DNA of 64,000 nt from Rhodospirillales bacterium. GTDB taxonomy: Bacteria > Pseudomonadota > Alphaproteobacteria > Rhodospirillales > Shumkoniaceae. The notes beneath the pieces are model-generated. The model worked only from the letters and a program-made list of their open reading frames with translations, made no database searches and was not told the origin of the DNA. The stretch is from the NCBI GenBank assembly GCA_016776725.1, contig JADHSV010000007.1, positions 1 to 64,000 of the forward strand. Reading direction: 5' to 3'. Of this stretch, positions 14,401 through 40,556 are shown in pieces (position 1 is the stretch's first letter; every line of letters begins with the position of its first letter). Position numbers and translations under genes: made by a program.

Positions 14401-14663
14401 GAATGCTAAGATTGAACGTTGCAAAACGGGGGAAACAGCCATATCTCGAAATGGTCTCTAATTTAGCTGTGGTGGCACGGATGTTGCCATTACAATGGTC
14501 GTGTGTTCTTGAGGCCGCTTTTCCGGTTTGTCCGGGAGTGGGAGCAGGCGGAGGTTTCTCCGTCCAAAAAAATACAATGTCAGCGCGGGCATCGACCCGT
14601 GTGGCGGGTCGGTTCTTTCGCGAGAGAGATTGTGGAAACAAGATTTTGTTACGGAGATTGTTC

Positions 14664-15551
14664 ATGACGAATTCAGGAAAACTGTTAATTGGCGGCTTGG
14701 CGATGGTTTTGCTTGCCGGTTGTGGCGGCCAGCAATTGGGGAAAGCGCTTGAGGTTGATCCCAAGGGGTCGACGTTCCAGGGGCATCTTTTCGCCGAATA
14801 CATTGAGCTTTCGCAATTGGAATATAACGAAAGCGACTGGGCGGATTCTGACAAGTTCGCGATGCGTGCGATCTCGGCCGGTACCGGTGGCCCCAGGTCG
14901 TTGGAAAAGATCGCGGATCGTGAATTGCCGGAAGACAAGGTCTATGCGCTGAGTGAAGCGCGCAAACGCCTCGTCAATCTGTTTGGCAAGGGCGCGGCTG
15001 AGAAATATCCGCAGGATGCGGCGCATGCTTAGGCCATGTATGAATGCTGGATGCAAGAGCAGGAAGAAAACTTCCAGCCTGCCGACATCATGCGTTGCCG
15101 GGCGGCTCTTTGGGACGTCCTGCGCAAGTTGGAAGGCGCGCTTGCTCCGGTAGCCATGGCTCCGGCACCCATGCCCGCGCCGGCACCGGCACCTATGCCG
15201 GCTCCGACCATTCCGTCGTCCTTCACCGTGTTCTTTGATTTCGACAAAGCGACGCTATCGGACATGGCCAAAAAGGTCATTGGCGAAGCGATGATTGCCT
15301 CTCGCCAAAGCAAGGCCAAGTCGATTGTGATTACCGGCCATGCGGACAGGGCGGGCACCTCGAAATACAATATGGAACTTTCCAATGCGCGTGTTGCGGC
15401 GGTGGTCGCTGCGTTCAAGGAAGGTGGTCTGGGCTCGGGCGTCAAGATCGTGAGTGCCGGATACGGCGAAGAGTCGCCCCGTATTGCGACTGCGGATGGT
15501 CAGCGTTCTGCGGCCAACCGTCGGGTCAACATCGACCTGAACACGTACTAG
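14664..15551 (+). pseudogene. OmpA-family peptidoglycan-binding lipoprotein interrupted by an in-frame TAG
   Basis: Codons 14664-15029 encode a lipoprotein signal (MTNSGKLLIGGLAMVLLAGC, lipobox LAGC) and the start of a mature domain. TAG follows at 15030-15032. Without any frame change the reading continues from 15033 to the stop at 15549-15551. The distal part holds CWMQEQEENFQP, a Pro/Ala/Met linker (APAPMPAPAP) and a complete OmpA C-terminal domain: TVFFDFDKATL, GHADRAGTSKYN, NARVAAV and SAANRRVNIDL. A single C-to-T change of a CAG glutamine codon would explain it. The distal half alone would lack export and anchoring signals. TAG serves as a normal stop elsewhere here (10220, 15549), so recoding is unlikely. 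A sequencing error remains possible. Confidence 0.85.
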
Positions 15552-15571: not shown

Positions 15572-15602
15572 GGGGGGCGGGCTTTCCGCCCCCCGAATTG
15601 TT
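15572..15602 (+). terminator. GC-rich hairpin downstream of the OmpA reading frame
   Basis: ggggggcgg (15572-15580) pairs perfectly with ccgcccccc (15586-15594) around a five-base loop. The following gaattgtttg is only moderately T-rich, so termination may be imperfect. Confidence 0.6.
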
Positions 15603-15670: not shown

Positions 15671-16522
15671 ATGAAACGCGGAATTTTGATAGGTGGCGTC
15701 GGCCTGGTGGTCATCATCGTGGCCGGAGTCTTCTTCCTTTGGTCCAATATCGGCGGGATCATCAAGTCGGCGGTGGAAAAATTTGGAACGGAAATTCTTC
15801 AGGCCGAAGTGACCCTCAACGAAGTCGATATTTCAACGACGTCGGGTGCGGGCGCGCTAAAAGGCCTGAACATCGGCAATCCGTCAGGCTTTGAAACCGA
15901 CAAGGCTTTCAGTCTGGGCCTCGTCAGCGTCAAGATGGATACCGGCACGATTACGTCGGATACCATCGTGATCAAGGAAATTGTCGTACAGGCGCCGGAC
16001 ATTACCTACGAAATCGGTTCCGGCGGCAGCAATCTGGATAAATTGAAGGAAAATGCCGACGCCTACGTCAAGGTAGCTTCGGGTGGTGGTGGCGGCAGCA
16101 GCAGCGCCGACAGCGCCGATGGCAAGAAGCTGATCATTGAGCACCTGTATATTCGGGAAGCCAAAATGAATGTCAGCGCCACCTTCCTGGGCGGCAAGAA
16201 GTTTGGCGCCACCCTGCCGGAAATCCACCTGACAGACATCGGCAAGGAAGACAATGGCGCCGGACCGGGCGAGATTGCCGATCAGGTCATCTCGGCTATT
16301 ACCGACTCGGCGACCGGCGCGGTCTCCGGCATCGATTTCGGCGACATGGCCGGCAAGGTGAGCGAACAGCTTGGCGACATCATGGGAGACGCGGGCGGTA
16401 TGGCCAGCGGAGCCGCGGATGCAGCCAAGGAGCAGGCCAGTGACGTTATGAAGAAAGCCACCGAGAGCGCAGGTGGGGCAGGCGAAGCTTTGAAGGGCCT
16501 GTTCGGCGGATCAAAGAAATAG
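15671..16522 (+). CDS. AsmA-like membrane-anchored periplasmic protein
   Basis: This is a 283-residue protein with a single N-terminal membrane segment (residues 5-25) followed by a beta-rich region. It resembles the AsmA/DUF748 style: VTLNEVDISTTSGAGALKGLNIGNP, then IVVQAPDITYEIG, and later LIIEHLYIREAKMN. A glycine/serine-rich linker (residues 137-145) splits the domain. The last 80 residues are alanine/glycine-rich and helical. tggaagga precedes the ATG. AsmA-type proteins are linked to envelope lipid transport or outer-membrane biogenesis; its neighbour is an OmpA lipoprotein. The exact role is unknown, and the family assignment rests on resemblance only. Confidence 0.6.
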   Translation: MKRGILIGGVGLVVIIVAGVFFLWSNIGGIIKSAVEKFGTEILQAEVTLNEVDISTTSGAGALKGLNIGNPSGFETDKAFSLGLVSVKMDTGTITSDTIVIKEIVVQAPDITYEIGSGGSNLDKLKENADAYVKVASGGGGGSSSADSADGKKLIIEHLYIREAKMNVSATFLGGKKFGATLPEIHLTDIGKEDNGAGPGEIADQVISAITDSATGAVSGIDFGDMAGKVSEQLGDIMGDAGGMASGAADAAKEQASDVMKKATESAGGAGEALKGLFGGSKK

Positions 16523-22785: not shown

Positions 22786-22887
22786 TGCCGAATGTGATTT
22801 GTGGGCGCCAATTAGGTTTTGAATGCCCAAAAAGATCGGTAAGGTAAGCAAGGCTTGAGAAGGACCTCGGCTATTGGCAATACGGGC

Positions 22888-24981
22888 ATGAACCAACAGA
22901 CAATTTGTGGCCGTTTGGTTTCGCCCTGCGTGGTTTCGTTGGGGTATGCCGGTATTGGCGTTTGCTGGATTTTGGTCTCGGATCGCCCGGACGAAGTATC
23001 GTCTGGTGACCTCGGTCTTTTCGCGTTGATACAAACATTCGGCGACTGGTTGTTTTTTCTGGCCACCGCCGCGTTGATTTTTGTGTTGATGCGAATGGTA
23101 CAGAAGCGCGCCGACAACGAATTGGCGAGCCTTCGGGCGGTCCTGGATCATTCCCCGGCGTCCATTGCCATGACGGATACGTCAGGGCGGTTCGTTGTGG
23201 TAAATGCGGAGTTTCAGCGGCGATACGGGGTTAGCGAGGATGCGGCGATCGGAAAAACGGTCGAAGAACTGTTTCCGAAGAGGATCTCTCAAGACGTAAA
23301 CGAGCAGGTGCGTGAGATTTCCGAGAAGGGCGAGGTGGCCAAGCGCGACCTGTCCGTTACTTTTGCCGATGGAACAGAGCACACCCTTGAAGTTACCCGG
23401 TTCCCAATTCCCGGCGCAGACGGAAAATCGTTGGGAATTGGCTCTATCTCGATCGATGTTACGGAACGAACGCGGGCCAACGCAGCCCTGGCGGAAAGCG
23501 AGAGCCTGCTACGCGCCATCATCGATAATTGCCCTCTGGTAATCGCGCTCAAGGATATGGAAGGGCGTTACCAACTGGTCAACAAAAAGGCGAAAGCAAC
23601 GTCCGATCTGTATTCGGAGGAAATATACGGGAAAACGGGCTTCGATTTCCGACCGCGCGGCGATGCGGAATTTGCGGCGGCGAAGGATCGCGAGGTCATG
23701 GATACGGGTAAACCCGTTACCTACGAAGTGTGGAATCGACTGACCGACGGGGCGGATCACCATTTCCTGGTTACCAAGTTTCCGGTGTTTGACGGAAATG
23801 GCGAAATGACGGGCGTTGGCATGGCCAGCCTTGAATCCACCAATATGAAGAAGGCCCAGGATGCGTTGAAGGAAAGCGAAACCCTGTTCCGCAATGTTAT
23901 CGACAATTCTCCGCTCTCAATCGGACTAAAGGACCTGGAGGGCCGATATCGGTTGATCAATCGAAGATACAGGGAATCCCTAGGCGCGGTGGGTGAAGAA
24001 TACCGGGGAAAGAAAGTTGGGGATTACCGGTCCGCGGCGGTCGTAGAGGAGGTTCAGCGGCGCGATCGCGAGGTCATGGAGAGCCGCCGTGCCGTCACCT
24101 ATGAGGCGACCAAAATTGGAAGGGATGGCAAGGTACGTTATTTCCTGACCAACAGGTTTCCGGTGTTCGATGCTCAGGGCGACATGTCCGGTATCGGATT
24201 TACGAGTCTGGACGTCTCCGAACGCGTTGATGCCGAACGCCGGGTGCAGGAAATGCAGTCGGATTTCGCCCATGTTTCGCGACTCAGCACACTGGGCGAA
24301 ATGGCGGCCGGATTTGCCCACGAATTGAACCAGCCGCTGGCCGCAATCCGCAACTATGCCGCCGGGTCGATCCGGCGAATTGATGCACGGCATGGCGACA
24401 TCAGCGATGTTCGCGTCGTCATCGAGCGTATTGCCGAACAGGCGGCGCGCGCCGGCGACATCATCATGCGAATTCGCAAATTCATTCGTAAGGAAGAAGG
24501 CGAAAAGAACAGTATCGATGTAGCTTCCGTTATTCACGACTCCATCGGTCTGCTGTATGGCGAGACGCTAAAACACAATGCCGAGATCGTGCCGGAAATG
24601 GCCGACAATTTGCCGCGGGTGGTTGCCGATGTGGTGCAAATTCAGCAGGTCATTATCAATCTCGTGCGCAACGGCTTGGAAGCCATGGACAATGGAGAAG
24701 ACGTCCCGCGTTGCGTAACCATTCGCGCGAATCAGGAGGCCGAATGTGTGCGCGTGGAGGTCGAGGATCAGGGGTCGGGCATCAGTGATGAAGTTCGTGA
24801 GCGACTGTTCGAGCCGTTCTTCACCACCAAGGGTGATGGAATGGGCATTGGTCTATTGATCTGTCAGACCATCGTCGAGGAGCACGGGGGAACCCTCGCC
24901 GTTACGCAGGCTTCGAGCGGCGGCACCGTCGTTTCTTTCACCCTGCCGGTCCGAGATAGCGGGCAGGCGGCTGAAAACTGA
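22888..24981 (+). CDS. Membrane-anchored three-PAS sensor histidine kinase
   Basis: About 697 residues. Two hydrophobic segments lie in the first 75 residues. Three successive PAS domains follow (about 85-200, 205-330 and 335-455), the last two with repeated KDLEGRY-type cores. Next is a HisKA domain with the phospho-histidine in FAHELNQPLAAI and a HATPase domain (NLVRNGLEAM, DQGSGIS, GMGIGLLIC). The kinase core resembles the FixL/DctB group. The start is uncertain: ATG 22888 is used, but an in-frame TTG at 22855 with an upstream aaggtaag is possible. No response regulator gene is adjacent. The signal sensed is unknown. Confidence 0.88.
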   Translation: MNQQTICGRLVSPCVVSLGYAGIGVCWILVSDRPDEVSSGDLGLFALIQTFGDWLFFLATAALIFVLMRMVQKRADNELASLRAVLDHSPASIAMTDTSGRFVVVNAEFQRRYGVSEDAAIGKTVEELFPKRISQDVNEQVREISEKGEVAKRDLSVTFADGTEHTLEVTRFPIPGADGKSLGIGSISIDVTERTRANAALAESESLLRAIIDNCPLVIALKDMEGRYQLVNKKAKATSDLYSEEIYGKTGFDFRPRGDAEFAAAKDREVMDTGKPVTYEVWNRLTDGADHHFLVTKFPVFDGNGEMTGVGMASLESTNMKKAQDALKESETLFRNVIDNSPLSIGLKDLEGRYRLINRRYRESLGAVGEEYRGKKVGDYRSAAVVEEVQRRDREVMESRRAVTYEATKIGRDGKVRYFLTNRFPVFDAQGDMSGIGFTSLDVSERVDAERRVQEMQSDFAHVSRLSTLGEMAAGFAHELNQPLAAIRNYAAGSIRRIDARHGDISDVRVVIERIAEQAARAGDIIMRIRKFIRKEEGEKNSIDVASVIHDSIGLLYGETLKHNAEIVPEMADNLPRVVADVVQIQQVIINLVRNGLEAMDNGEDVPRCVTIRANQEAECVRVEVEDQGSGISDEVRERLFEPFFTTKGDGMGIGLLICQTIVEEHGGTLAVTQASSGGTVVSFTLPVRDSGQAAEN

Positions 24982-40492: not shown

Positions 40493-40556
40493 ATTAGGTG
40501 ACAGTATACTAAATTATTTCTAATAATTTAGTATACTGTCACCTAATTCTGTCGCC
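40493..40556. repeat. Long palindromic repeat, copy 2
   Basis: Bases 40493-40518 are the exact reverse complement of 40522-40547 (26-bp arms, three-base spacer). The core is nearly identical to that at 1276-1341, and the flank aattctgtcgcc on its right is the reverse complement of that copy's left flank. The element is therefore inserted in the opposite orientation. It again lies between convergent gene ends (glgP and the gene at 40560) and may double as a bidirectional terminator. Confidence 0.9.

Follow-up and report, generated by a model that had tools for sequence, protein, structure and literature searches.

The gene at positions 14664-15551 of the window (the 64,000-nucleotide stretch of a Rhodospirillales contig analysed here), which its sequence places in the PapS family, is interrupted by a single in-frame TAG at a conserved glutamine codon, and is probably a young nonsense null allele that arose by one recent, genuine C-to-T change. 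The region forms one frame of 295 codons, read directly from the DNA and its translation (MTNSGKLLIGGLAMVLLAGCGG...AAHA*AMYECWMQEQEENFQP...NIDLNTY*), where the first asterisk is the internal TAG at 15030-15032 and the second the native stop. Along this frame lie a lipoprotein signal (LLAGC), an N-terminal domain, a Pro/Ala linker and an OmpA domain, in that order. The OmpA domain scores 56.4 bits against the PF00691 cut-off of 27.2; the N-terminal 122 residues matched no Pfam family. The sequence, the translation and the PF00691 match thus bear out the sequence-only reading that lipoprotein signal, linker and complete OmpA domain share one frame broken only by this stop. Coordinates are collected in Table 1.

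Table 1. Features of the interrupted gene and its immediate surroundings (positions in the window).
Feature	Position	Strand	Basis or remark
Shine-Dalgarno-like GGAG just 5' of the ATG	14652..14663	+	Sequence ACGGAGATTGTTCATG read directly
5' part of the papS-family gene, 122 codons: lipoprotein signal with lipobox (LLAGC) and most of the PapS-type N-terminal domain	14664..15029	+	
In-frame TAG in an invariant Gln column (CAG in the C4 orthologue)	15030..15032	+	
3' part in the same frame: end of the N-terminal domain (AMYECWMQEQEENFQPADIMRC), Pro/Ala linker, OmpA domain	15033..15548	+	PF00691; dN/dS 0.135 against C4
Possible restart ORF, 171 aa, ATG one codon after the TAG	15036..15551	+	
Native stop of the papS-family gene, TAG	15549..15551	+	Sequence and translation
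Terminator-like hairpin 3' of the gene, 10 pairs, 9 GC	15572..15594	+	Three such sites found against 2.0 expected by chance in the region
Downstream gene, weak DUF748 match below cut-off	15671..16522	+	Same order in two relatives of the family

PapS of R. rubrum (Rru_A3328) is an abundant, porin-associated and peptidoglycan-binding outer-membrane lipoprotein that combines an N-terminal domain of its own with an OmpA-like domain (PMC11369160). It occurs widely in Rhodospirillales, often as several copies; besides peptidoglycan it binds the porins Por39 and Por41, and R. rubrum needs it for its cell curvature; W22 and W58 are its porin-binding tryptophans, each dispensable alone (PMC11369160). 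A 273-residue family member in genome G229 carries W22, W58 and R223 exactly as in the published numbering, and this agreement in length and in all three residues identifies it as R. rubrum PapS. The intact orthologue of the window gene, on contig C4 of the same bin, aligns with this protein over its full length (BLASTP, 30% identity, E 9e-34), and both contain the block AxAQxxFDCW...EE..QP.xI..C. By eye, the lipobox is LLAGC within the first 20 residues of the window frame and LLTAC in R. rubrum PapS. An arginine of the window gene aligns with R223 and is the equivalent of the mDAP-binding residue; the equivalent of W58 is present and that of W22 absent. On the strength of its N-terminal domain, its lipobox and an OmpA domain with the predicted mDAP-binding arginine, the gene is assigned to the PapS family, an identity more precise than the OmpA lipoprotein proposed earlier. 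A working PapS-family member would be one continuous protein; the TAG divides this one, making it a broken member. No NCBIfam cut-off was reached for Pal or any other named OmpA lipoprotein, and Pal itself (TIGR02802) was rejected at 61 bits against an equivalog cut-off of 125.35.

The surrounding gene order (a sugar-isomerase-like gene, the lipoprotein, a DUF748-like gene and a convergent CoA-transferase-like gene) recurs in two relatives of the same family, which makes the window gene a positional orthologue. In both relatives a short extra OmpA lipoprotein lies between the sugar-isomerase-like and papS-family genes (L077 5332-5835 on the minus strand, L078 3702-4241 on the plus strand); neither has a PapS N-terminal domain, and the window has no counterpart.

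The interrupted column is occupied by glutamine in 31 of 31 aligned homologues, namely the C4 orthologue and 30 further proteins encoded in the same bin or by relatives throughout the order, with a stop in the window alone. R. rubrum PapS likewise has glutamine here, at position 121 (Q121). The column sits inside the conserved block AxAQxxFDCWMQEQEENFQPxDIxxC, and the syntenic C4 gene, which is uninterrupted and encodes an 86% identical protein, has CAG at the position of the TAG. The CAG-to-TAG change put forward from the sequence therefore finds its expected source codon. The part before the TAG was aligned with 30 homologues and R. rubrum PapS and is itself 86% identical to the C4 orthologue; the window frame as a whole aligns to residues 1-296 of that intact orthologue with one TAG inside. 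Since all 31 homologues run through the position with glutamine, the continuity of the frame across the TAG is not due to chance. A search of the order found a match to the gene in 268 of 317 genomes, and among the roughly 150 best matches listed an in-frame stop occurred only in the window (TAG) and in genome G262 (TAA). When the distal half was searched against named genomes, the matches were mostly other OmpA proteins, with one clear PapS-type relative (L040).

The continuity of these homologues also bears on the idea that the two halves form a natural pair, a short porin-binding lipoprotein followed by a re-initiated OmpA fragment. The ATG one codon after the TAG would suit such an arrangement, but the restart frame has no signal peptide, and its product should not reach the periplasm; nor does it have a good ribosome-binding site. 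Moreover, no relative is split at this point, and the cut falls inside the conserved block with two conserved cysteines on its far side. A naturally split gene with a separate OmpA gene downstream, which the earlier reading had named as the finding that would overturn it, was accordingly rejected, and we regard a functional split pair as hardly credible.

The lesion appears to be young. Measured against the C4 orthologue, dN/dS stands at 0.158 for the part 5' of the TAG and at 0.135 for the 3' part; the distal part is thus as constrained as the proximal one, which argues for a recent change. With two outgroups to polarise them, the amino-acid changes after the TAG comprise one derived in the window and five derived in C4, and thus show no accumulation on the branch of the window. 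A decaying old pseudogene was rejected, as there is no relaxation beyond the stop. The dN/dS values of other genes in this stretch lie at 0.03-0.12, so constraint on the papS-family gene was already somewhat weaker before the lesion. About 20 other orthologue pairs between the window and C4, spread over 25.8 kb, contain no interrupting stop (one pair reports a stop which, judged by its coordinates, lies upstream of the start codon). Taken with the undecayed constraint after the TAG, this leaves two choices: a young lesion that stands alone, or one that is not real. The orthologue comparison served to look for other split genes because a scan by codon bias had produced numerous antisense false positives.

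The possibility that the lesion is not real deserves weight because the bin is of metagenome type (52 contigs, 73.9% complete, 3.6% contaminated): a single base decides everything, and an assembly error, too, would leave the gene undecayed. The T at 15030 could be a mistake of assembly or consensus calling, or could come from a minority strain in a mixed bin, the gene being intact in the population. Spurious internal stops introduced by assembly are common in public genomes (PMC11017572), and nothing beyond the stop has decayed. Contig C4 (L075, L105, L106), 28 kb long, is colinear with window positions 1-25806 at 77-86% nucleotide identity, over nearly its whole length and bounded only by contig ends, and relatives were therefore probably mixed in the sample. 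However, C4 differs from the window by about 15% here, and a chimera between the two would be visible at more than a single base; the uninterrupted orthologue pairs likewise indicate that the contig is not rich in errors. On balance an artefact or strain base seems unlikely, if still a serious contender, and we infer that the base at 15030 is real.

Contig C4 is probably a co-binned congener, and otherwise a large duplication; the bin holds just one copy of the 1.9 kb by which it extends past the window's end. Two further observations concern these contigs. For the protein at 22873-24951 of the window, the C4 orthologue aligns in several overlapping pieces, which suggests internal repeats differing in copy number or order. 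A perfect palindrome with arms of 26-29 nt and a GGTGACAGTATACTAAATTATT core occurs at 1283-1341 and 40493-40547 of the window, with about 15 or more additional copies on the contigs of the bin, and looks like a dispersed extragenic palindromic repeat.

A different account would have the amber codon read through or suppressed, by near-cognate readthrough, a suppressor tRNA or an altered code, so that full-length protein is still made. The intact, constrained distal part would be expected under this account, yet the translation machinery of the bin speaks against it. Release factor 1 is complete and free of stops (519 bits against a cut-off of 423), and TAG ends 17 of the 44 gene-like ORFs of the contig (TAA 15, TGA 12), making it the commonest terminal stop there as well as the native stop of the papS-family gene itself. 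No CTA anticodon, the mark of the amber suppressor whose search the earlier reading had proposed, occurs among the 22 tRNA genes recovered from this 74% complete genome, a set from which several standard tRNAs are also missing; that search is thus incomplete and could have overlooked a suppressor. RNA folding at the stop is ordinary (z -1.16 and 0.46), on which ground a structured readthrough element was rejected, and every homologue encodes glutamine here directly. Recoding or suppression was rejected on the intact RF1, the use of TAG and the lack of a CTA anticodon among the 22 tRNA genes: the lesion does not look like a new genetic code, and suppression or readthrough is very unlikely. It is less probable still that amber readthrough yields both a short lipid-anchored and a full-length wall-binding form of PapS that together tune cell curvature. 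The sequence-only reading had left the lesion as young or suppressed; its first half is upheld by the undecayed constraint beyond the stop, and its second is made unlikely by the evidence of RF1, TAG usage, recovered tRNAs and folding.

If the nonsense mutation is taken as real, a single recent C-to-T change would have turned the conserved glutamine codon into an amber stop, and translation would stop within the N-terminal domain, after residue 122, short of both the linker and the OmpA domain that binds peptidoglycan. The shortened product would keep its lipid anchor, with the lipobox, and the W58 equivalent; what follows in the N-terminal domain, with its two conserved cysteines, would be missing, as would all of the peptidoglycan-binding domain, and the product should be unable to bridge the outer membrane and the cell wall. 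If translation began again at the ATG one codon further on, an OmpA fragment lacking a signal peptide would result. A non-functional product, and hence a null allele, is expected.

Such a loss is plausibly tolerated, by analogy with R. rubrum, where a papS deletion lowers the yield moderately and does not alter the growth rate (PMC11369160), a phenotype that makes the loss tolerable. The bin also holds a second, intact papS-like gene on its contig C35, which may serve as the paralogue that makes the loss bearable if both contigs come from one organism. Other genomes of the order carry comparable lesions. In G262, from another family, a papS homologue (L113, contig C16) has the TAA at positions 540-542, inside the CWM-EQEE block; this lesion and the window TAG are independent. 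In G209 (L115, contig C35 of that genome) a decayed papS homologue with an in-frame TAG is recognisable only in its N-terminal part. Together with the window lesion, these two cases suggest that a genome with paralogues can do without an individual papS copy. Several codons of the glutamine-rich block of the family are one transition away from a stop.

On its own, the interruption is a routine single-gene lesion and ordinary as such. It offers a natural loss-of-function candidate for the recently described PapS family of cell-curvature proteins. Like ordinary nonsense pseudogenes (PMC11017572), the gene has a single internal stop and is otherwise intact; it differs from them in the invariant column and the known gene family, and in nothing more. 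With Pal it has in common that it is a lipoprotein with an OmpA domain, and it differs in its additional N-terminal domain. The closest comparison is with R. rubrum PapS, which likewise combines a lipoprotein signal, a PapS-type N-terminal domain, a linker and a C-terminal OmpA domain with the mDAP-binding arginine, in a family often present in several copies per genome across the order. Unlike R. rubrum PapS, the window gene is cut by a TAG at the equivalent of Q121 and has only the W58 equivalent of the two porin-binding tryptophans.
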